Shown here piece after piece: positions 6,799-17,883 of a stretch of DNA of 64,000 nucleotides (the stretch's first letter is position 1; each line of letters opens with the position of its first letter). A program made the position numbers and the translations under genes. Where the stretch lies: positions 1 to 64,000 of the forward strand of contig JACRNY010000001.1 of the NCBI GenBank assembly GCA_016214695.1, read 5' to 3'. The stretch comes from Nitrosomonadales bacterium. Lineage in GTDB: Bacteria > Pseudomonadota > Gammaproteobacteria > Burkholderiales > Gallionellaceae. The notes below the pieces were generated by a model. That model was not told the DNA's origin and made no database searches. It was given only the letters and a program-made list of their open reading frames with translations.

Positions 6799-7872
6799 TC
6801 AATGCCTGCCGGAAGCGGCAGACAGGATGGTTTGCGGGATATCGCCCAGGGGCAAGGTACGATCCACCCCGCCCAGTTTGACGGCCTCCTTGGGCATGCC
6901 GTAGACGACGCAGGTGGCTTCATCCTGCGCGACGGTCCTGGCGCCGGCATCGTGCATCTCGCGCAGACCGCGCGCGCCGTCGTCGCCCATGCCGGTCATG
7001 ATGACCCCGAGCGCATTCGAACCGGCGCATTTCGCCACCGAGCGGAACAGCACATCCACCGAGGGACGATGGCGATTGACCAGCGGTCCGTCTACGACAT
7101 CGACGTGGTATTGCGCACCACTGCGCTTCAGCATCATGTGGCGTCCGCCGGGCGCGATCAAGGCCAGACCGGGCACCACGCGCTCCCCGCCCTTCGCTTC
7201 GCGCACCTCGATCTGGCAGATGCCGTTGAGGCGGTTGGCGAAAGCTTCGGTGAACTTCTCCGGCATGTGTTGCACGATGACGATACCTGGACAGACGCGC
7301 GGCAGCGCGGTCAACACCGCCTCCAGCGCCTGGGTACCGCCGGTCGACGTGCCGATCGCCACCACCGCTTCTGTGGTCTGCGCCATCGCATGATGGCTGG
7401 ATGCGGAAAGGACCGCATCGGCAGTCAGTTTGGGGGCGACCGGCGCAGCTGATGCCTGCATGCGCCGCACATTGGCGCGGGCTGCCGCCTTGACCGTGTG
7501 GATCAGATTGTCCGAGGCATCCTGCAGATAACTCTTCAACCCGACCTTGGGCTTGGTGACGACACTGACCGCCCCGGCCGCAAGCGCCTGCATGGTCGTC
7601 TCCGCCCCCTTCTCGGTGAGTGTGGAGCAGATCACCACCGGGGTCGGGTGCTCGGCCATGATCTTCTTCAGGAAGGTGATGCCGTCCATGCGCGGCATCT
7701 CCACATCCAGCACGATGACGTCGGGCCATGCCTTGCCCAGTTTCTCGATGGCGAACACCGGATCGGAGGCGACCGCGATCACTTCGATCTCGTGATCCTC
7801 CTCCAGCGTCGCCGCCAGCACCTGCCGCACCACGGCGGAATCGTCCACGATCATCACGCGGATCTTGCTCAT
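6799..7872 (-). CDS. cheB: Chemotaxis methylesterase/glutamine deamidase CheB
   Basis: Demethylates and deamidates chemoreceptors when phosphorylated by CheA. The 357-residue product has a receiver domain (phospho-Asp56 in [11 protein letters not shown], switch Lys in VVTKPKVG) and, after a linker of about 50 residues, the CheB esterase domain. That domain shows the catalytic Ser in AIGTSTGG, His in VQHMPEKF and Asp in GMGDDGARG. Length is normal. The ATG at 7872 overlaps the CheD stop codon (ATGA) and has a GAGGAG Shine-Dalgarno sequence. Open sequence further upstream in this frame is only a shadow of cheD. It is the last gene of the twelve-gene chemosensory operon. Confidence 0.96.
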
Positions 7873-8426
7873 GCTTTGCTCCTCTCCCCCATTGGGACCA
7901 GTGGCGTGGAGGCCGGCACATGCTTCATCCAGGCATCGCCGCTCCAGACGTCGAACAGCAGCTGGCGGTGGCCCTGGCCGCCGAGGTGCTCGGCGTGGAT
8001 GGCAAAGCCGTTCTCCTGTATCAGATGGTAGGCCATCTGGCGGTTGCGGCAGTGGACCTTGGTGCAGGATCTGTCCAGGTCGTCGGGCGTGCAGCGCTGG
8101 CAATCGCGATTGCCGGCCAGCGGGAACATGTTGCCGGCACCGAACACTTTCACCTTGTATTCCGCCGGCCGGGTGTCGGCGGCACGGATCTCGTTCAGGA
8201 ACATCTCCATCGCCTCGTCGGCATATCTGCCGTCCAGTTCGCCGCTGCGCTTCTGCCCGCGTGTCGGCAGCATGTAATGACACATGCCCCCGATCAGTTT
8301 TTGCGGGTGCCAGCACACGATGGAGACGCACGATCCCAGCACGGTGCGGATGCGCGTGTCCCTGTCGCCGAAATAGAAATCGCCCGGCTGCAGGAATATC
8401 TCGATCACATGGTCGGGCTTATGCAT
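7869..8426 (-). CDS. cheD: Chemoreceptor glutamine deamidase CheD
   Basis: Deamidates specific Gln residues in chemoreceptor methylation helices and in some bacteria binds CheC or CheY. The 185-residue product carries the CheD core: TVLGSCVSI, with the catalytic Cys, followed by GGMCHYMLP with the catalytic His, and the conserved [10 protein letters not shown] stretch. A Cys-rich segment (GNRDCQRC...DRSC) in the middle is unusual for CheD and could bind a metal. The stop codon overlaps the CheB start by four bases, and the start overlaps the CheR 3' end by eight. Confidence 0.93.
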
Positions 8427-9240
8427 CGGGCTTGCGATACACGGAAGGGGTGACCACCCTGAGCTTGTCGGTGATCCCGTTCAGGCTTTCCGAATGGCTG
8501 ACGATGAAATACCCGCCCGGCCGCAACAGCGGCAGCATGCGTTCCACCACGCGCTGCTTGGTCTCCATGTCGAAATAGATCATCACATTGCGCAGGAAGA
8601 TCACGTCGAACTCGCCCAGCTTGGGCAGCGACTCGTTGAGGTTGACCTGCATGAACGCGACGCGGTTGCGCACGTTGCGGTCGATCAGGATGGTGCCTTC
8701 CTGCGGGCCGGTGCCCTTGAGGCAGAAGCGGCTCAGATAATTGCGCGGGATGCCGTCGATGCGTTTCATCGGGTAATGCCCCGTGCGCGCCTTTTCCAGC
8801 ACGCGCGTGCTGATGTCGGAACCGACCACTTCCCAGGCATCTTCGCCGAGCACATCGGCCAGCACCATCGCGATGGTATAGGGCTCTTCCCCGGAAGAGC
8901 TGGCCGCGCTCCAGATGCGGAAAGGCTTGCCCGCGCGCCGCAGTGCCGGAATCTGCTGGCGCAGGAAATCGAAATGCCTCGGTTCGCGGAAGAAGAAGGT
9001 CTCGTTGGTGGTCAGCAGATCGATGGCGGTCTGCAACTCTTCGCGCCGGTCCTGGCGCATGAGAATGCTGAAATAGTCGCCGTAACTCTTCAGGCCGTGC
9101 TGTTTGACGCGTTTCGCCAGCCGCCCGCTGACCAGCGGTTTCTTGGCGTCCGACAGGTTGATGCCGGCGATGTCGTAGATCATCGCCTGGAACTGGCGGA
9201 ACTCCTGGTCGCTCAATGCGGGTGGGGACAGCGTATTCAT
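8419..9240 (-). CDS. cheR: Chemotaxis methyltransferase CheR
   Basis: SAM-dependent methylation of chemoreceptor glutamates. The 273-residue protein has the N-terminal all-helical CheR domain (SDQEFRQFQAMIYDIAGI) and the Rossmann methyltransferase domain. Key motifs are ETFFFREPRHFDFLR, the SAM-binding SAASSSGEEPYTIAM, and the FDVIFLRNVMIYFD block. The usual GCSTGEEPYS Cys-Thr is Ser-Ser here, a conservative change. I chose the ATG at 9240, preceded by AAAAGGAA; the longer upstream frame overlaps the ODP gene and has no CheR similarity. Located between the ODP sensor and cheD. Confidence 0.95.
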   Translation of the reverse strand: MNTLSPPALSDQEFRQFQAMIYDIAGINLSDAKKPLVSGRLAKRVKQHGLKSYGDYFSILMRQDRREELQTAIDLLTTNETFFFREPRHFDFLRQQIPALRRAGKPFRIWSAASSSGEEPYTIAMVLADVLGEDAWEVVGSDISTRVLEKARTGHYPMKRIDGIPRNYLSRFCLKGTGPQEGTILIDRNVRNRVAFMQVNLNESLPKLGEFDVIFLRNVMIYFDMETKQRVVERMLPLLRPGGYFIVSHSESLNGITDKLRVVTPSVYRKPDA

Positions 9241-9247
9241 TTCCTTT

Positions 9248-9994
9248 TCAGTCCTTGCTCTTTGTTCGTCCCACGGGCAGTTCGGCGAACCAGTTGATGA
9301 AACGCTCCACGTCCTGGCCCTGGTAGATCGCACCGTGCTGCGGACACAGCATGTCGATATCCATCTGCCCCGCCCGCTCGCACCAGTCCAGTTTGGCCTC
9401 GTTCGATCCCATCCAGCGGCGATGGAAGGCCTCCGCATGGCGGATGTGCCGGTCGAAATCCCGCACATACAGACCGTCCATCTCCGCCGGCAACAGTGCC
9501 GCGCCAACATCGCCGCTGAACAGCAGTTTCGCTTTCGGGTCGTACAGGTGGAAATTCCCGGAGGAATGCAGGTAGTGGGCCGGCACTGCCTGCAGCTTCA
9601 GATCGCCGAGGGCGATCTCGCGCCCCTCATCGGGCATGGCGATAAAAGTCTGGCCATTGCCGCCGAAGTGGGGAATGAACGAGTCCCACAACCAGCTCAG
9701 GTAGCAGCGTATGCCGGGATTGAAATCCAGCCACAGCGACAGCGACGAGATGATGTCTGGATCCTGATGCGACGCGAACAGCCACTGAATCTTGCGCGGA
9801 TCGAATTCCATGCTGATGGCGGAGAACACGGCCGGGAATATCTCCATGCCACCCGGATCGGTCAGCAAGGCATGCTCGCCGTTGAGTACCAGATACTCGT
9901 TGGTATCGATCAGGAAACCCTGCTTGTCCGGATCGCGTGCGATCGCCAGCCAGCGATGGGCACCATCTTCATAGATGATCTGGATCTTCTTCAT
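9248..9994 (-). CDS. ODP-type di-iron chemotaxis sensor (flavodiiron-like MBL fold)
   Basis: A 248-residue cytoplasmic protein of the metallo-beta-lactamase superfamily closest to the oxygen-binding di-iron protein (ODP) / flavodiiron core. Predicted metal ligands are His76-x-Asp78-x-Asp80 (SHQDPD), His143 in the YLHSSGNF block, Asp162 in LFSGDVG and His220 in PQHGAIY. It lacks the C-terminal flavodoxin domain of true flavodiiron oxidoreductases, as ODP does. In Treponema, ODP is a chemotaxis sensor of O2 and Fe(II) that acts with a cytoplasmic receptor. Here it is in a che operon, overlapping by four bases a short receptor-like gene (9991-10590) and followed by cheR. This strongly suggests an O2- or iron-sensing input. 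A plain MBL-fold hydrolase is the less likely alternative. Confidence 0.85.
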   Translation of the reverse strand: MKKIQIIYEDGAHRWLAIARDPDKQGFLIDTNEYLVLNGEHALLTDPGGMEIFPAVFSAISMEFDPRKIQWLFASHQDPDIISSLSLWLDFNPGIRCYLSWLWDSFIPHFGGNGQTFIAMPDEGREIALGDLKLQAVPAHYLHSSGNFHLYDPKAKLLFSGDVGAALLPAEMDGLYVRDFDRHIRHAEAFHRRWMGSNEAKLDWCERAGQMDIDMLCPQHGAIYQGQDVERFINWFAELPVGRTKSKD

Positions 9995-10590
9995 GCCGCC
10001 TCCAATTGTCGACCCAGCTTGTTCAGCGTGGACAGTATCTCGCTGATCGACCTCTCGACCTGCTCGGAGACATTGCGCAATGCAAGGGCCTGCACCCCGC
10101 CATACACGGCTTCAATCTTCGCCGAGTTCGAGAGCGACTGCCCCATGACACAGAGCTTGTGTGCCCTGGCCACCGACCACATCAGTTTCTGGCGGAAGCG
10201 CGCGATCGACTCATGATTGCGGGCCAGTTCATTCGACTTCCGCGTCTGCATCGCGTCCCAATGCGCATAATGCGCGGCCGCTGAGCGGGTCGCCAGCTGC
10301 AACTCCATCGCCTTGTTCAAACGGATCATGCCGGCCACTTCCCGCACCAGCAGGGACACATACTCCACCAGGCTCTGCATCGCCTCGCCCAGACGCCGGC
10401 TGAACGCGCGCAACTCGGACGACACCACGCTGAAACCGCTGCTGCCGATCTTGTTGGAGATCAGCATCGCGTTGATCGCGGCCAGATTGATCTCGTTGGC
10501 GATGCGCATGACGGCCTTGATATCCTCATTGATCGAAACCATATGCAGAAGCTCCTGCGAGCGCTGCCCGTTGTCTGCCCGTGATCCCAT
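9991..10590 (-). CDS. Short cytoplasmic MCP-like protein with degenerate signalling tip
   Basis: A 199-residue helical protein without membrane segments. Residues about 31-70 align with the hairpin tip of methyl-accepting chemotaxis proteins: INLAAINAMLISNKIG followed by GFSVVSSELRAFSRRL, against the canonical [15 protein letters not shown] and GFAVVAxEVRKLA. Several nearly invariant tip residues are changed: the Glu and Arg of [10 protein letters not shown] are replaced, and the second GRGFAVVA arm is GSSGFSVVS. It may therefore not couple to CheA/CheW in the usual way. The rest is coiled coil with no sensor domain. The stop codon overlaps the ODP start, so the two are translated together and probably act as a pair. 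Confidence 0.75.
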   Translation of the reverse strand: MGSRADNGQRSQELLHMVSINEDIKAVMRIANEINLAAINAMLISNKIGSSGFSVVSSELRAFSRRLGEAMQSLVEYVSLLVREVAGMIRLNKAMELQLATRSAAAHYAHWDAMQTRKSNELARNHESIARFRQKLMWSVARAHKLCVMGQSLSNSAKIEAVYGGVQALALRNVSEQVERSISEILSTLNKLGRQLEAA

Positions 10591-10693: not shown

Positions 10694-11452
10694 TCAGCGC
10701 ACTCGCTCCAGCAGTACCGCGAATCCGGCGAACATCTCCCAGTCCTTTGCCGCTCGGCTCAACCCGGCCGCGACACCCGCATCGAGCACGACGCGCTCGC
10801 TCAGCGTATAACTGGTGGCCAGCAGCCACTGGTTCACGGGAGCCGTCCGCTGTAGCCAGGTGCCCGACAGTTCCGTCGAGAAGGCCCAGCGCGCGTCCAA
10901 TTGCCGCGACCAGGAGACTGCACCGCCCCACTGTCTGTCGCTCCGGCCGGCTTGTGCATCTCCCAACCCTGTCAGGTTGAGATTCAGGTCGATCGCATCG
11001 CCGCGGTCTTCCAGACTGTAGATGCCATTCACCACATAGTCGGTCTTGCCGCTGCCCAGCCCCTTCGAGGCCGTGGCCGCTTTGAACCCGTATTCCAGCC
11101 CGAGCGCCTCGCGGTCGTTCAACTCCCAGCGATTCTTCAGGAGCAAGGTCGTGTCGCCCGCACCGGAGAGCCTGCCGCCGTCCCAGGCGGTCTGCTGCAT
11201 CCAGGCGTCGCCGCCGAGCAGCACGCCGAAGTCCTCGCTGAGCGCGAACTTGAGCAGGTAGGGCAGGCTTTGCGAACTGGCGTTAACGCCACCGAGCTGC
11301 CGGCTCAGGCCCGCTTCCAGCTCGATCCAGCCGGGTGCCGACAGCGCCGCCTGGTTGGACACCGTCGGACGATAGGGCGTCACGCTCCCCCCCTCTCCCC
11401 ATGCCGCCGAAGAGATGGCGGACAACAACAGGAAAAGGGAGCTGCATCTCAC
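10694..11452 (-). CDS. Outer-membrane beta-barrel protein (phenol MetA-like) inside the che operon
   Basis: A 252-residue secreted protein with a signal peptide (SAAWGEGG, cleavage near residue 20). Alternating hydrophobic and polar strands with frequent aromatic girdle residues, such as WIELEAGLSRQL, LLLKNRWELN and ALGLEYGFK, end in a hydrophobic strand LLERVR. The pattern resembles the MetA-pathway phenol-degradation / transporter-like barrel family. It starts at a GTG at 11452, 11 bp from the MCP stop codon, so it appears to be transcribed with the chemoreceptor. Exact function unknown. Confidence 0.65.
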   Translation of the reverse strand: MRCSSLFLLLSAISSAAWGEGGSVTPYRPTVSNQAALSAPGWIELEAGLSRQLGGVNASSQSLPYLLKFALSEDFGVLLGGDAWMQQTAWDGGRLSGAGDTTLLLKNRWELNDREALGLEYGFKAATASKGLGSGKTDYVVNGIYSLEDRGDAIDLNLNLTGLGDAQAGRSDRQWGGAVSWSRQLDARWAFSTELSGTWLQRTAPVNQWLLATSYTLSERVVLDAGVAAGLSRAAKDWEMFAGFAVLLERVR

Positions 11453-11463
11453 ATCACCCCCGG

Positions 11464-13092
11464 TCAGAAGCGCTGGAAGTTGCTCTCATCCACGGGGGAC
11501 GAGGCCATGGCGCGCGAGATGACCTGCTTTGCTTCGGCGACATGCGCGGCACTGCCCTTGCCGGCCGGTCGTGCGACCGGAGCAGCCACGACGCCATCGA
11601 CCTTGAAGAAGCCGACCAGCTGCTGCAGGTTCTCTGCCTGGCTGCTCATCTCTTCTGCCGTGGCGGCGAGCTCTTCCGAAGAAGACGCGTTCTGCTGCGT
11701 GATCTGGTTGAGCTGGCTCATCGCCGTGTTGATCTGGCCCACGCCGGACGATTGTTCGTTCGATGCGGCGGCGATCTCCTGCACCAGATCGGAAGTCTTT
11801 CCGATGGCCGGCACGATCTGGTCCAGCAGCTTGCCTGCCTGCTCGGCGAGATCGACGCTGCCCTTGGCCACTTCACCGATCTCCTGTGCCGCGACCTGGG
11901 CACGTTCTGCCAGCTTGCGCACTTCGGCCGCCACCACGGCGAAGCCCTTGCCGTGCTCGCCGGCACGGGCGGCCTCGATGGCCGCGTTCAGCGCCAGCAG
12001 GTTGGTCTGGTAGGCGATGTCGTCGATGATGCCGATCTTGTCGGCGATGCTCTTCATCGCGGCCACGGTCTCCTTCACTGCCTGGCCGCCTTCGTTGGCC
12101 TGGGTGGAGGCGTTCTCGGCCATGCCGTTGGTCACCTTGGCGTTCTCGGCGTTCTGGTTGATCGAGGCGCTCATCTGCTCGACCGAGGCGGAGGTCTCTT
12201 CCACGCTGGCAGCCTGCTCGCTCGATGCCTGGCTCATGCTCTGCGCCGTCGCGCTCACTTCTTCCGATGCGCTGGACAGGGCATCCGCCGAGCTGCGCAC
12301 CTCGCCGATCACTTGCGACAGCTTGTCGGTCATGGCCTGCATCGACATCAGCAGCTGGCCGGTCTCGTCCTTGCTGGTCACTGCGATACGGGCAGTCAGG
12401 TCGCCCTCGGCCAGCTGGTTCGCCACACCGACGGCTTCATTCAGCGGTTTGGTGATGCTGCGCGTCACCCAGACCGCGAACACGATGGCGATGGTGATCG
12501 CGGCCAGGCCGAGCACGAGGATCAATGTGCGGGTCTGCGCGGCGATCTGGTTCGCCTCCGCGCCGGTCTTGCTCATCAGTTCGGACTGGAAAACGATCAG
12601 ATCACCCACGGCATTGATGTAGTCGCCCTGCGACTTGCGCATCACGCTGACCATGAACTCGACCGCCTCATCCTTCTTGCCGGCCTTCTGCAGTTCGATG
12701 AACTTGTCCTGATCGACCACGAAGGTCTTGCGCGCTTCCAGCGCCTTGGCCAGCACCTTCTTGCCTTCCTCGGACTTGATCAGTTTCTCCAGCTTGTCGA
12801 AGCCTTCGATGATCTCCTTGCGCGCGACGGTGACGCGCTCCAGCTCTTTCTGGCGGTCTTCCGCCTTGGTTACCAGAGCGGAATTGCGCAGCGCACGCGC
12901 GATGATGTTGATGTCATCGATGATGTCGTTGGCAATGACCGTCTTGGGGAATTTGTCGTTCACCAGATCGTCGATCTCATTGCTGATCTCGCCGACGCGC
13001 AGGAAAGACACCGTCGAAATGATCGCCAGCAGGATCAGCACCAAAGCGAAGCCTGCCCCCAACCGCATACCTATTTTCATATCCTTGAACAT
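11464..13092 (-). CDS. Methyl-accepting chemotaxis protein with 4-helix-bundle sensor
   Basis: A 542-residue transmembrane chemoreceptor. TM1 is at about 10-32, then a 4HB_MCP-type periplasmic sensor (about 33-188), TM2 near 190-210, a HAMP domain ([10 protein letters not shown]...[10 protein letters not shown]) and the long signalling hairpin with the conserved tip ([26 protein letters not shown]). The C-terminus ends in NFQRF, an aromatic-x-x-aromatic pentapeptide that can tether CheR or CheB in other receptors. The start ATG at 13092 has an AGAGGTG Shine-Dalgarno sequence. It lies between cheW and the outer-membrane barrel gene. The ligand is unknown. Confidence 0.93.
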
Positions 13093-13158: not shown

Positions 13159-13698
13159 TCATCCGGCCTCCTTTGGTGCGTTCGTCCCGGCAGCGCCCGT
13201 CAGTGCGGCGATCTCGTCCACCGACAGGACCTTGCCCACGTCGAGCAGGATCACGAACTTGCCGTTGACCTTGCCCATGCCCTGGATGAAGTCGGTGCGG
13301 ATCTTGGCGCCGAAGGCTGGGGGCGGCTCGATCTCGCTGGCCGGGATCTCCAGCACCTCGCTCACCGCATCGACCACCACGCCGATGTCCTGCTTCTCTT
13401 CGCCGGTCGGCACCTCGATGATGACGATGCAGGTGCGGCGCGTGATCTGCGTGGCGTTGCGTCCGAAGCGGGCGGAGAGATCGATCACCGGCACCACGGC
13501 GCCGCGCAGGTTGATCACCCCGCGGATGAAGCCGGGCATCATCGGCACCTCGGTCAGCTGGCCGTATTCGATGATCTCCTTCACGCTCAGCGTGCCGACC
13601 GCGAACATCTCGCTGCCCAGCGCGAATGTCAGGTACTGCTGGATCTCCGCCGCCTGTGTCAGCGCGACCTGCGTCTCTGTTCTAACCAATGCACCCAT
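13159..13698 (-). CDS. cheW: Chemotaxis coupling protein CheW
   Basis: A 179-residue CheW domain protein that links receptors to the CheA P5 domain. It shows QQYLTFALGSEMFAV, VKEIIEYGQLTEVPMMPGFIRGVINLRG with the receptor/CheA-contacting Arg, and VIDLSARFG. The length is a little over the usual 150-165 because of a short N-terminal arm and an Ala/Pro-rich tail. It sits directly between cheA and the 4HB receptor gene, with gaps of 42 and 66 bp. Confidence 0.95.
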   Translation of the reverse strand: MGALVRTETQVALTQAAEIQQYLTFALGSEMFAVGTLSVKEIIEYGQLTEVPMMPGFIRGVINLRGAVVPVIDLSARFGRNATQITRRTCIVIIEVPTGEEKQDIGVVVDAVSEVLEIPASEIEPPPAFGAKIRTDFIQGMGKVNGKFVILLDVGKVLSVDEIAALTGAAGTNAPKEAG

Positions 13699-13740: not shown

Positions 13741-15918
13741 TCATGCGACTTCGAGACCGTTCTTTTCCACCTGCGCCGAGACCTGCTGCACCAGACGCGG
13801 GACATCGAGGATCAGCGCGACCTCGCCGCTGCCGAGGATGGTCGAGCCGCCGATGCCGTTCACGTTGCTGAAGATGCGTCCCAGCGGCTTGATGACCGTC
13901 TGGAACTCGCCCTGCAGGGTATCCACCACCAGCCCGGCGCGCGTCCCGCCGTACTGCACCACCACCACGTTCTCGCGACGCACCGGCTCGCCGCTCACGT
14001 CGAACATGTCGCGCAGACGCATGTAAGGCAGCACCTGTCCGCGCAGGGAGAGGTAGTTGCGCTCGTTGGCGGCGCGCCTGTCCTCGTCGGAGAGCTCGAT
14101 GCACTCGACCACCAGGTCGAGCGGGATGACGAAGGAAGACTTGCCGACGCCGACCAGGAAACCGTCGATGATGGCCAGCGTGAGCGGCAGACGGATACGG
14201 ATCGTCGTGCCCCTGCCTTCTTCGCTGTCCAGATCGATACTGCCGCGCAGCGCGGTGATGTTGCGGCGCACCACATCCATGCCGACACCGCGGCCGGACA
14301 GGTTGCTCACCACATCGGCGGTGGAGAAGCCCGCTTCGAAGATCAGGTTGAAAATCTCCTTGTCGCTGAGGCTGGCATCCGCCGGCACCAGGCCGCGCTC
14401 GATGGCTTTCTTCAGTATCTTGTCCTTCTTCAGACCGCCGCCGTCGTCGGACACCTCGATGACGATGCTGCCGGAATCATGGAAGGCATTGAGATGCAGC
14501 GTGCCCTTGGCCGGCTTGCCATTGGCGATGCGCACGTCGGCCGGCTCGATGCCGTGGTCCATGGAGTTGCGCACCAGATGGGTGAGCGGATCGCCGATCT
14601 TCTCCACCACGGTCTTGTCCAGCTCGGTCTCGGCGCCGCTGATGACGAGTTCGATGTCCTTGCCCAGTTCCTTGCTGACATCGCGCACCACACGCTGGAA
14701 ACGGTTGAAGGTGGCGCCGATCTGCACCATGCGCAGCGTGAGCGCGCAATCGCGCACCTCTTCCACCAGGCGCGACAGGGTCGAAGCGGCCTCCTGCAGT
14801 TCCGAGATGCCCGCGCGCTGCGCCACCAGGGCGGTGCCTGCGCTGGCGATGGTCAGTTCGCCGATCAGGTTGATGAGCTGGTCCAGCTTGTCCGCATCGA
14901 CGCGGATCAGGCTGTTCTCCGCGGTCTTGCTGTCCTTCACCTGCTTCTGCTTCTCCAGTGCCGCATTGACCACCGCGGGGCTGACGACCTTCTGCTCCAG
15001 CAAGGCCTCGCCGAGCGGGCGTTTCGCGCTGCTCTCGCTCTGCGCCTGGCGGCGCAATGCCTGTTCCAGTTCGACCGCGGTCAGCGTGCCGCACTGGACC
15101 AGTATCTCGCCCAGACGCATCTCCTTCTCGGGCAAGTCGCGGATCATGTCCACATATTCGGCGACCTTGCTGTGCGGCGGCATGATGCGGATCTGGCAAT
15201 CGTCGCGCACGAATTCGAAGGCGCCCTCGATCGCGGCCTTGTCGGCATCGGTCTGGAAGCTGATCTCGAAGCCGAGGTAACAGGATTCGGGGTCGAGCTG
15301 GGAGAGCGGCGGCACCGTCTCGACCATGGTGACGACATTGATGGTCTTGCCGAAGGTGTTCAGGTAGCGGATGAACGACAGGGGATCCATGCCGTTGCGC
15401 AGCACGTCGGTGCCGAAACGCAGGGAGATGTGCCAGTTGTCGGTCTCGACACCCTCGCCCTTTTCGCGTTCCACCTTGTGCGACTGTTCCACCAGCGTGC
15501 CGGCAACGGCCGTCGGCGCTGCATGTTTGTGTCCGAGATAGATGTTCAGCTGCTCTATCAGTTTGCGGCTGTGCTGGTGGCTGTCTTCGCCGGGCTCCTC
15601 ACCCTGCGCTGCATGATCGACCAGCGCGCCGATGTGGTCGCGCGCAGTCAGCAGCAGTGCGACCAGTTCGGATTCGATCTGCAGTTCGTTGCTGCGCACC
15701 TTGTCCAGCACGCTCTCCGCCACATGGGTGAACGCCACGATGTATTCCAGCCCGAACAGGCCGGCCGATCCCTTGATGGTGTGCGCCGCACGGAAGATCG
15801 CATTGATGATCTCCGGGTCGTGCTCCGCCTGCTCGATGCGCAGCAGCGCATCCTCCATCTGCTCCAGCAGTTCGCGGCTTTCGATGATGAACGTCTTGAG
15901 TGCCTCGTCGAGATTCAT
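13741..15918 (-). CDS. cheA: Chemotaxis histidine kinase CheA with MshEN-like insert
   Basis: A 725-residue kinase. Domains in order: HPt/P1 (phospho-His46 in AAHTIKGSAG), an atypical middle domain of about 100 residues (160-262), a tandem LGE-type motif region (268-324), dimerisation P3 (about 335-400), HATPase P4 (N box around Asn451 in VRNSMDHG, G box DDGGG at 491-495, GRGVGMDVVR) and the CheW-like P5 domain. The P2 CheY-docking domain is not obvious. The segment at 268-291 and 301-324 repeats a 24-residue pattern (R/P-LGE-x-L-[VL]...L-x-x-x-L-x-x-Q) that matches the c-di-GMP-binding MshEN signature. The gene lies between a STAS protein and cheW. Kinase assignment is certain; nucleotide binding by the insert is inference. 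Confidence 0.95.
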   Translation of the reverse strand: MNLDEALKTFIIESRELLEQMEDALLRIEQAEHDPEIINAIFRAAHTIKGSAGLFGLEYIVAFTHVAESVLDKVRSNELQIESELVALLLTARDHIGALVDHAAQGEEPGEDSHQHSRKLIEQLNIYLGHKHAAPTAVAGTLVEQSHKVEREKGEGVETDNWHISLRFGTDVLRNGMDPLSFIRYLNTFGKTINVVTMVETVPPLSQLDPESCYLGFEISFQTDADKAAIEGAFEFVRDDCQIRIMPPHSKVAEYVDMIRDLPEKEMRLGEILVQCGTLTAVELEQALRRQAQSESSAKRPLGEALLEQKVVSPAVVNAALEKQKQVKDSKTAENSLIRVDADKLDQLINLIGELTIASAGTALVAQRAGISELQEAASTLSRLVEEVRDCALTLRMVQIGATFNRFQRVVRDVSKELGKDIELVISGAETELDKTVVEKIGDPLTHLVRNSMDHGIEPADVRIANGKPAKGTLHLNAFHDSGSIVIEVSDDGGGLKKDKILKKAIERGLVPADASLSDKEIFNLIFEAGFSTADVVSNLSGRGVGMDVVRRNITALRGSIDLDSEEGRGTTIRIRLPLTLAIIDGFLVGVGKSSFVIPLDLVVECIELSDEDRRAANERNYLSLRGQVLPYMRLRDMFDVSGEPVRRENVVVVQYGGTRAGLVVDTLQGEFQTVIKPLGRIFSNVNGIGGSTILGSGEVALILDVPRLVQQVSAQVEKNGLEVA

Positions 15919-15928
15919 GGCTGGTTCC

Positions 15929-16255
15929 TTAGTGCACGGTATGCGGGAAGATCACGATCTGGTCGCCGAAGAAGCCGCCCAGGTCGCACAGGTCGAACAC
16001 TTCCTGCACCGGCTTGCTGTGACCGACGAAATGCAGCTGCTTGTCGCGGATCATCGCCTCCAGCTTGGCCGCGATCAGCAACTGCAAGCCGGCCGAATCG
16101 ATTTCCGCGACCTTGGACAGGTCGATCTCGATGGCGCTGGCATTATCGATGCGGGAAAAAACGAGTTCCTTCAGTTCGGCGGCGCGGTAGATCGTCAGAT
16201 CGCCCTCGATGGCGAAATGCGCGCCTGCTTCTTGCGATTTGTCCTGTGTTGACAT
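15929..16255 (-). CDS. STAS-domain protein in the chemotaxis operon
   Basis: A 108-residue STAS-domain protein, similar to anti-anti-sigma factors and to STAS subunits found in some chemosensory and Mla systems. The conserved core IEIDLSKVAEIDSAGLQLLIAAK (split here as IEIDLSKV and AEIDSAGLQLL) contains the Asp-Ser pair; the Ser is the phosphorylation site in SpoIIAA-type proteins. There is no partner kinase or sigma factor next to it. It overlaps nothing: the gap to cheA is 10 bp and to cheY 29 bp. In this setting it could act as a phospho-switch or scaffold on the CheA/CheY pathway, which is inference. Confidence 0.85.
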   Translation of the reverse strand: MSTQDKSQEAGAHFAIEGDLTIYRAAELKELVFSRIDNASAIEIDLSKVAEIDSAGLQLLIAAKLEAMIRDKQLHFVGHSKPVQEVFDLCDLGGFFGDQIVIFPHTVH

Positions 16256-16284: not shown

Positions 16285-16653
16285 TTACGGCAGCACCAGC
16301 TTGGAAACGGCAGTCAGCATCTGTGCCGGCTGGAACGGCTTGACCACCCAGGCCTTGGCACCGGCCGCCTGGCCGGCCTGCTTCTTGTCCTCGCCCGCTT
16401 CGGTGGTAAGCATGATGACCGGCGTGAATTTGTACTCGGCCTTCTTCTTCGCCTCGGTGACGAAGGTGATGCCGTCCATGTTGGGCATGTTCACGTCGCT
16501 TATGATCAGGTGGATCTTGCTGCCGTCGAGTTTGCCCAGCGCGTCCTTGCCGTCACAGGCCTCGATCACGTCGTAGCCCGCGCCTTTCAGCGCGATGCTC
16601 ACTACCTGACGCAGGGATGCCGAATCGTCCACAACCAGAATTGTCTTTGCCAT
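16285..16653 (-). CDS. cheY: Chemotaxis response regulator CheY
   Basis: A single-domain receiver of 122 residues. It shows the acidic pair Asp9-Asp10 (VVDDS), phospho-acceptor Asp53 (IISDVNMPNMDG), conserved Thr in MLTTEAG and switch Lys105 (VVKPFQ), all in place. It should be phosphorylated by CheA and act on the flagellar motor or another output. The ATG at 16653 is 10 bp after the upstream receptor gene's stop codon, so it is expressed with the operon's first gene. No other cheY-like gene is in the window apart from cheB's receiver domain. Confidence 0.95.
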   Translation of the reverse strand: MAKTILVVDDSASLRQVVSIALKGAGYDVIEACDGKDALGKLDGSKIHLIISDVNMPNMDGITFVTEAKKKAEYKFTPVIMLTTEAGEDKKQAGQAAGAKAWVVKPFQPAQMLTAVSKLVLP

Positions 16654-16662
16654 TGTTCGCTC

Positions 16663-17883
16663 CTAGAAAAAAGTGATGTCAGAAGAAGAGTTTTGCGCCT
16701 GCGCCTGTTGCTTGCCGCCGTGCACGGCATGCTGTTCGGGCATGGTGTAGGTCTGCGCCAGCTCGGCCAGCCAGGCGCGCGCGTCCATGGGCGCAGACGC
16801 GTTACCGGCCGCGCGCTCGCTCCCGCATGCGCGCAGATGTTCGTCCAGCTTGCCGAGGTCGTTGCGCACATGCATCAGCATCTGGCTGACGCGGTCCTGG
16901 AACTGCAGCGCCACCAGCACCTCGGAGATCTCGTTGCCGATGATCTGGCTCTCGTTGCGCAATATCTCCGCCGAGTCCGACAGCGCGGTGGTCGCCGTGC
17001 CGAACTGCGCCATGACGTGCTCGATCACGCGCTCCGAATTGACGACCATCTCGGTGTCCTGCTGGGCATATTGTTCGGAGACGCGCAGCGTGGAAGCGAT
17101 GGCCTGGTTGACCGTCTCCACCGTCGCGCTGATCTTCTTGCCGGTCTCGCCGGACAGGTTGGAGAGTTTGCGCACCTCGTCGGCGACCACGGCAAAACCG
17201 CGCCCGACCTCGCCGGCGCGGGCCGCTTCGATGGCCGCGTTGAGCGCCAGCAGGTTGGTCTGACCGGCGATGTCGGCCACGTCCTGCGCCATCTTCTTCA
17301 GGTCGCCGGTGAATTGCGACAATGCACGGATCTCGCCCAGCATCGAGCGTTTGACTTCGAGTGCCGAGCGCAGCGAGGTGACGATGGAATTGAGTTCGGC
17401 CTGGCTTTCCTGCAGCAGCGTGACCAGGCTGGCCTGCTCGCCGTTGCCGCCCGACGACATGGCGGAGGTGGCCAGTGCGGAGGACAGCCGTTGCGACAGG
17501 TTGGCGAAACGCATGGAAAGGTCGGTGATGGATGCCTCGGTGTGCGTGCGCGCCATCTCGATCTGGTTGGACCATACCGGCAGCACATCCACGCACAGGC
17601 TGTCCAGACCGCCGACCTGCTGGTTCCTTTGCCGGGTCAGCTCGGCCTCATAGTGGTTGCGCATCCCGGCCAGGGACGCTTGCAGCGTCCGCTCGTGGCT
17701 GGATATGGCGAACACCGCGGCGGCGAAGGTCGACAGCAGCAGAACTGCCGTCAGGATGACGACCGGCCAGCCGGAGCCACCGACCGCGATGATACCGACG
17801 ACCTCGAGCAGGCCGAGCAGTACCAGCGGGGCGATCACCCCGGGTTTTCCGGCGCCTTTCCTTGAATGCAGCACGCTATCCAT
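16663..17883 (-). CDS. Methyl-accepting chemotaxis protein without a periplasmic sensor
   Basis: A 406-residue receptor whose N-terminus forms a hairpin of two transmembrane helices (about 16-37 and 42-62) with only a few residues between them, so it has no extracytoplasmic sensor. A coiled-coil region (65-190) leads to the MCP signalling tip ([26 protein letters not shown]). There is no HAMP domain. The C-terminus is Gln/Ser-rich and ends in DITFF, an aromatic tail. The ATG at 17883 has GGAG eight bases upstream. It is the first gene of the chemosensory operon and might sense membrane state or intracellular signals, which is inference. Confidence 0.9.

Follow-up and report, generated by a model that had tools for sequence, protein, structure and literature searches.

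The window, a 64,000-nucleotide stretch of DNA from a member of the Gallionellaceae (contig JACRNY010000001.1, positions 1 to 64,000), contains a chemotaxis gene cluster on its minus strand, transcribed in the order MCP, receiver, STAS, cheA, cheW, MCP, 252-aa ORF, 199-aa gene, 248-aa gene, cheR, cheD and cheB (Table 1). The 248-aa gene encodes an ODP-family di-iron protein with an MBL fold and the 199-aa gene encodes a receptor-like protein, hereafter termed the partner. The two reading frames of the preliminary description and the 4-base overlap that joins them were exact, and Pfam matches agreed with its placement of cheR-cheD-cheB downstream of the pair. Translational coupling of the partner and ODP via this overlap is likely. 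The 252-aa ORF sits between the MCP and the partner-ODP pair, and its start resembles a signal peptide when inspected by eye.

Table 1. Features of the chemotaxis locus, listed in the order of transcription (positions within the window).
Feature	Position	Strand	Basis
Second MCP	16663..17883	-	Pfam MCPsignal 2.4e-26
CheY-like receiver	16285..16653	-	Pfam Response_reg 1.4e-25
STAS-domain protein, adjoins cheA	15929..16255	-	Pfam STAS_2 4.5e-15
cheA	13741..15918	-	Pfam Hpt, H-kinase_dim, HATPase_c, CheW
cheW	13159..13698	-	Pfam CheW 1.1e-40
Transmembrane-type MCP	11464..13092	-	Pfam 4HB, HAMP, MCPsignal
252-aa ORF, unknown family	10694..11452	-	No Pfam match
199-aa partner (mini-receptor)	9991..10590	-	AlphaFold model; residues 8-100 match MCP tips
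Tip 1 of partner, residues 32-64: N40-A41, G52-F53, E59-x-R61	10399..10497	-	Conservation in 100 rows; hhalign to 36 canonical tips
Possible degenerate tip 2 of partner, residues 148-180: A157-K-I159-E160-A	10051..10149	-	Ungapped registers, hhalign; shuffle controls mixed
Partner/ODP stop/start overlap, 4 bases	9991..9994	-	Read from sequence
ODP-family di-iron MBL-fold protein, 248 aa	9248..9994	-	Pfam PF19583, PDB ODP matches, invariant ligands
cheR, 273 aa from chosen ATG	8419..9240	-	Pfam CheR 1.6e-54
cheD	7869..8426	-	Pfam CheD 1.4e-20
cheB, start = ATG of MSKIRV, by eye	6799..7872	-	CheB_methylest 3.8e-67 + receiver domain (ORF 6802-7905)

The 248-aa protein had been read as an MBL-fold protein that keeps the metal ligands of ODP, and this was borne out. 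Residues 29-221 matched the Pfam ODP family (PF19583; 1.9e-72, 243.7 bits, above the cut-off of 27.2), with all six of the ligands named (His76, Asp78, Asp80, His143, Asp162 and His220) present. Alignment with ODPs and flavodiiron proteins, the check proposed at the time, gave matches to two solved ODPs in the PDB at 6.2e-66 and 2.6e-56, with flavodiiron matches being far weaker (4dik, 1.9e-9). The six ligands were invariant in 24 of 24 aligned members of the window's ODP clade (25 clade ODPs minus L060, whose match crossed a stop) and in 90 of 90 rows of a wider ODP sample, including all 58 rows linked to a partner gene. A glutamine at position 219, found in 57 of these 58 rows (the exception being a gap) and in the 32 rows that make up the rest of the sample, is probably an additional metal ligand; the available text of PMC7785958 describes a Gln at motif 5 as an unusual ODP ligand. 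Membership of the ODP family is near certain and, judging from family and ligands, the protein would be expected to bind two irons and O2. MBL hydrolases such as glyoxalase II carry an HxHxDH zinc motif; the site here is H76-Q-D-P-D80-I, ruling out a glyoxalase-like hydrolase. An ordinary flavodiiron enzyme was also ruled out, as the 248 residues hold an ODP/Lactamase_B domain only. The MBL di-iron core is common to flavodiiron proteins and the window ODP, whereas the latter lacks a flavodoxin domain and has Asp78 in place of the Glu of the aligned flavodiiron chain.

In a tree of 90 sampled ODP rows, for which the program warned of long branches, the partner-linked rows and two rows counted below as partner losses were separated from both solved ODPs by a branch with 100/100 support and a length of 1.04. 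The likeness drawn in the preliminary description to the O2/Fe(II) sensor of Treponema stands for the family and the di-iron ligand set; since both solved ODPs lie outside the window's ODP clade, a carry-over of O2/Fe(II) sensing is something we infer.

The match of the partner to Pfam MCPsignal, covering residues 20-91, was weak (E 0.002; 18.4 bits, with the cut-off at 34.6), and a Pfam scan of the protein found neither a membrane nor a ligand-binding domain. A pairwise hhalign comparison matched residues 8-100 to a profile built from 36 canonical MCP tips at an E of 5e-19, aligning them with the tip of the MCP signalling domain (PF00015); by this comparison the N-terminal half of the partner is an MCP tip. 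In an alignment with 26 relatives near-invariant residues were located at 14-71 and 157-160, and variation was greatest in the middle part. Tip 1 carries the conserved contact residues of an MCP hairpin tip (N40 in 97%, F53 in 94%, E59 in 93% and R61 in 92% of 100 rows), except that a hydrophobic residue stands in for the canonical tip Glu (in about 92% of rows Leu, Ile, Val or Met). The partner had previously been taken for a short MCP-like gene product, which is correct for this N-terminal half; it is not a simple short MCP, as it constitutes a distinct family of ~200 aa tied to one ODP clade.

An AlphaFold2 model of the partner, made as a single chain from a 27-row alignment with no templates, consisted of four helices (4-48, 51-104, 111-162 and 165-198) with a mean pLDDT of 93.0 and a pTM of 0.83. 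In the up-down arrangement expected of such bundles, the turns at 49-50 and 163-164 would share one end and the loop at 105-110 would lie at the opposite end. MCPs are homodimers with one hairpin per chain, whereas the single-chain model shows two hairpins; it covers one chain and is therefore compatible with a homodimer as well. The predicted helices appear too short to also hold methylation segments. In a Foldseek search of the PDB with this model, the first eight places went to single-chain four-helix designs, with TM scores of 0.43-0.60 and large rmsd values (5.6-14.9); some MCP chains ranked below them. A second AlphaFold model, of the divergent relative L179, scored a pLDDT of 89.4 and a pTM of 0.80 and lends little weight to the fold, because DSSP assigned an uninterrupted helix at 11-104 that runs straight through the tip turn and the top Foldseek match was a designed six-helix barrel (TM 0.34); four-helix designs matched at TM 0.29-0.52, and none of the matches reached an E of 0.001.

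The C-terminal half of the partner (residues 110-199) matched the 36-tip MCP profile with an hhalign P of 3.1e-4 and a probability of 40% (2.6e-4 and 42% with 100 rows), a score reached by 2 of 200 shuffles that kept the heptad phase. The matched register aligns E160 (98% Glu) with the canonical tip Glu and has mostly Tyr in place of the canonical tip Arg; fewer canonical tip residues are kept beyond the Glu and several are absent. This register, spotted by eye before its test, was the best of 183 in an ungapped scan (z 5.3), and its score was reached by phase-keeping shuffles in 1 of 2000 cases at the same register and 81 of 2000 at any register. The direct profile match between the two halves was weak (probability 5.7%, and 37.5% in a second comparison), so the case for a second tip draws on the MCP comparison together with the structure model. 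An IEA-type motif in hairpin 2 was retained in partners only 10-20% identical. Hairpin 2 can thus be regarded as a possible to probable degenerate second tip, rather than a proven one, because the shuffle controls were mixed and the register had been noticed beforehand. The roles of canonical tip residues in trimer and kinase contacts are known from work on E. coli Tsr. Unlike those of a symmetric dimer, the halves of a chain that carries both tips could take on separate roles, one in kinase/adaptor contact and the other at the trimer axis; the N, GF and ExR residues persist in hairpin 1 and the tip Glu in hairpin 2, which suggests such a division of labour at the level of sequence.

The chances that the partner is a single-chain pseudo-dimer are about even. 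A different arrangement, which we consider unlikely while still taking it seriously, is an ordinary homodimeric mini-MCP in which the N-terminal hairpins of two chains form the tip and the C-terminal hairpin only docks the ODP, making the pair a Treponema ODP-MCP module with a shortened receptor. The restriction of the strong MCP match to the N-terminal half and the high variability of the middle part are consistent with this, as is the situation in T. denticola, where, in the available text of PMC7666581, the MCP homolog TDE2496 has no transmembrane or sensing modules and, coupled to the ODP, modulates CheA. A homodimer is harder to reconcile with the confident one-chain model of four helices, in which two tip turns occupy corresponding positions, and with the retention of the hairpin 2 motif in distant partners. 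A decoy role, in which the partner would occupy CheW/CheA as a tip, be unable to make normal trimer contacts and lower kinase activity until ODP binding or release, is improbable; the hydrophobic residue at the canonical Glu position of tip 1 and the missing residues of tip 2 could be explained in this way, but N40, G52-F53 and E59-x-R61 are strongly kept, as would be expected of a working contact surface.

The pair was described at the outset as a dedicated sensory module, and its distribution upholds this for a two-gene module. Eight strong hits (1.3e-120 to 3.0e-14; the following one at 9.4e-7) were obtained when the window partner served as a single-sequence query against 100 relatives, and each of the eight has an ODP directly downstream. 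An ODP match at 1e-20 was present in 74 of 300 genomes of the order; 25 of the 300 (own genome included) carried an ODP at least 49% identical to that of the window, with the next at 43%, and the partner was adjacent to the ODP in each of these 25. A partner profile was built from the 25 partners it recovers, making their scores (3.4e-42 or better) partly a matter of construction, and detected nothing comparable elsewhere in the 300 genomes with up to 10 candidates scored in each (next 6e-17, an ordinary MCP). As the profile contains its own 25 targets, the non-circular tests are the single-sequence search and a set of named loci. The latter are the best 80 of 563 found through the ODP, and at least eight repeat genomes already used (L092, L098, L100, L105, L119, L152, L161, L169). 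Among these best 80 of 563 loci, the partner was located just upstream of the ODP on the same strand in 78, with a spacing of -10 to +50 bases in 76 of the 78 and the 4-base overlap (-4) in 37 of the 78 relatives. The pair was found in Gallionella, Sulfuricella, Dechloromonas, Zoogloea, Methylobacter and Undibacterium within this set, and also in records labelled Spirochaetota and Myxococcota. Two laboratory strains, Dechloromonas denitrificans ATCC BAA-841 (L119) and Aquaspirillum serpens DSM 68 (L152), are among its carriers. A tandem pair of partner-like genes (E 4e-11, 1e-38) precedes a single ODP in L114:3431-4638.

A scan of the phylum yielded five more ODPs (49-52% identity) with a partner-like gene, one of them a fragment (L180; 88-aa ORF, E 9e-5) and four (L176-L179) with scores of 3e-11 to 2e-17, i.e., in the range of ordinary MCPs, that were accepted on position, length and motif. 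No partner was present within the fetched flank of any of 28 ODPs at 46% identity or below (two of them, L070 and L193, lie close to a contig end on the upstream side), ruling out that every ODP has such a partner. Two Sulfuritalea-like loci (L162, L165) encode an ODP with all ligands kept and have no partner upstream of it, with genome-wide matches of ordinary MCP strength only; these were counted as losses. A single origin of the partner together with one ODP clade is consistent with these data, which stop short of proof, and a tightly linked two-gene module within one ODP clade is well supported.

The che-operon setting is correct for the window locus and does not extend to a general rule. 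Among the best 80 of 563 loci, a che gene was present in the fetched flanks of 20 and a che gene or MCP in 21 (12 of 52 when only uncut flanks are counted), ruling out that the pair is always part of a che operon; the pair is therefore often a free-standing unit. In three Gallionella records (L095, L097, L099) it is located between cheW and cheR. A cheR at least 80% identical to that of the window was found in five of 34 genomes of the genus besides its own. Among these five, G017 carries the pair, and G028, G033, G003 and G021 have an MCP upstream of cheR with no ODP or partner match between the two, the gap being 55 and 91 bases in G028 and G033 and about 520 and 410 in G003 and G021 (the MCP of G021 reads as two pieces). 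The partner-ODP pair is an optional cassette in the che operon.

The CheA dimerisation domain was detected in 215 of the 300 genomes of the order and in all 25 pair genomes (compared to the other 275, Fisher P 1.6e-4, uncorrected for kinship among these related genomes). CheA was present in all 41 distinct pair genomes, consisting of these 25, nine further (12 of 12, with three repeats) and another seven, and also in both genomes that lost the partner. It was also found in 46 of 49 genomes with other ODPs only (exceptions G096, G218, G223), which compared to 25 of 25 rules out CheA as a mark of the window's ODP clade. FliM went undetected in three of the 39 pair genomes (36 matched), namely a genome of 82% completeness and two records of Myxococcota, and two further Myxococcota matches were weak. 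The reading of the ODP as mainly an O2 or NO scavenger, with a partner that merely tethers it or is unrelated to chemotaxis, would suit the 59 loci (of the best 80 of 563) with no che gene or MCP in their fetched flanks (19 of the 59 are cut by contig ends), the hemerythrin gene that follows the ODP in L100 and L162 and the two relatives that retain the ODP after partner loss, but is very improbable given CheA in all 41 pair genomes (though also in the 46 of 49 above), an MCP tip as the best-conserved part of the partner and an ODP that consists of its MBL domain only, with no flavin domain found to feed turnover.

The explanation that we prefer, at little better than an even chance, is a two-gene sensory cassette in which the ODP provides the input and a single-chain, pseudo-dimeric tip joins it to CheA/CheW arrays. 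The ODP, with two irons and O2, would act as the input. The partner would be a cytoplasmic single-chain tip whose two tandem helical hairpins mimic the tip of a dimeric MCP; via this tip it would enter the CheA/CheW arrays made by ordinary receptors, carrying the ODP on its far end. As the ODP would then ride on an array-bound partner, its iron/O2 state would bias CheA. Array entry, the docking site and the direction of signalling are parts that we infer. It is a more tentative proposition, falling somewhat short of an even chance, that this is a new receptor architecture, with both hairpin tips of a dimer fused in one small soluble chain that serves as a plug-in iron/O2 cassette for existing arrays.

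An ODP coupled to a receptor is a type of module already known. In T. denticola the ODP (TDE2498) belongs to the same family and has the same ligand set as the window ODP, including Gln219, and it is genetically coupled to a cytoplasmic receptor-like protein (TDE2496), as is the case here. Deletion of the T. denticola ODP alters the order of CheA within the array (PMC7666581, available text), and the TREND study, in its available text, describes operons that combine ODP and MCP genes, in either of two orders, as well as ODPs fused to signalling domains (PMC7319448). The window ODP differs in belonging to a clade separate from both solved ODPs. Its partner is set apart from TDE2496, as described, by its ~200 aa, its probable double hairpin and its sub-threshold Pfam MCP score; in the Treponema-type module the adjacent gene has a recognisable MCP signalling domain, a feature that is missing here (18.4 against 34.6 bits). 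Compared to MCPs of the PF00015 type, the partner is without a membrane or ligand-binding domain and possibly has two tips per chain. No description of a double-tip partner or of its clade was found in the literature on single-chain or pseudo-dimeric receptors or on ODP chemotaxis; the original ODP paper (PNAS 2019) was outside this scope and may mention it.

If the double-tip reading is true, two tips within a single chain of 200 residues would suffice as a receptor, and this reduced form could still connect a separate metal sensor to chemotaxis arrays. It would also provide a minimal asymmetric handle on which tip surface drives CheA, something hidden in homodimeric receptors. Through the pair, swimming bacteria may be able to sense oxygen or iron with no need for a normal receptor, and O2/Fe(II) taxis via the pair is conceivable. 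Steering of the cell where gradients of O2 and iron oppose each other, as proposed in the preliminary description, would fit the occurrence in Gallionella, and the pair would become a named candidate for the positioning of iron oxidisers in such gradients. Two such iron-oxidiser strains appear to track O2/Fe(II) gradients, with specific chemotaxis assays lacking as of 2013, according to the available text of PMC3770913.

Several other genes were observed near ODPs. A hemerythrin gene was identified by Pfam directly 3' of the ODP at L100:6848-7303 and L162:6826-7263, with similar genes seen by eye in L104 and L165, and a PhaC gene precedes the ODP in L162. A further gene located beside some pairs had no Pfam match. 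The genome of the window has a second ODP (L001:1420-2193; G000 contig C3, 58178-58897) that is 38% identical to the window ODP; its fetched flank holds no partner gene, and an adenylate kinase (Pfam ADK) is encoded nearby. ODPs of a different clade (one family of the phylum, f79; L181, L182, L184-L192, L194, L195, L198-L201) adjoin short Roadblock/LC7-like proteins, recognized as Robl_LC7 by Pfam in both loci tested (L184, L186) and by eye in the others. This association suggests another ODP output pathway. In L186 a protoglobin was also located near the ODP.
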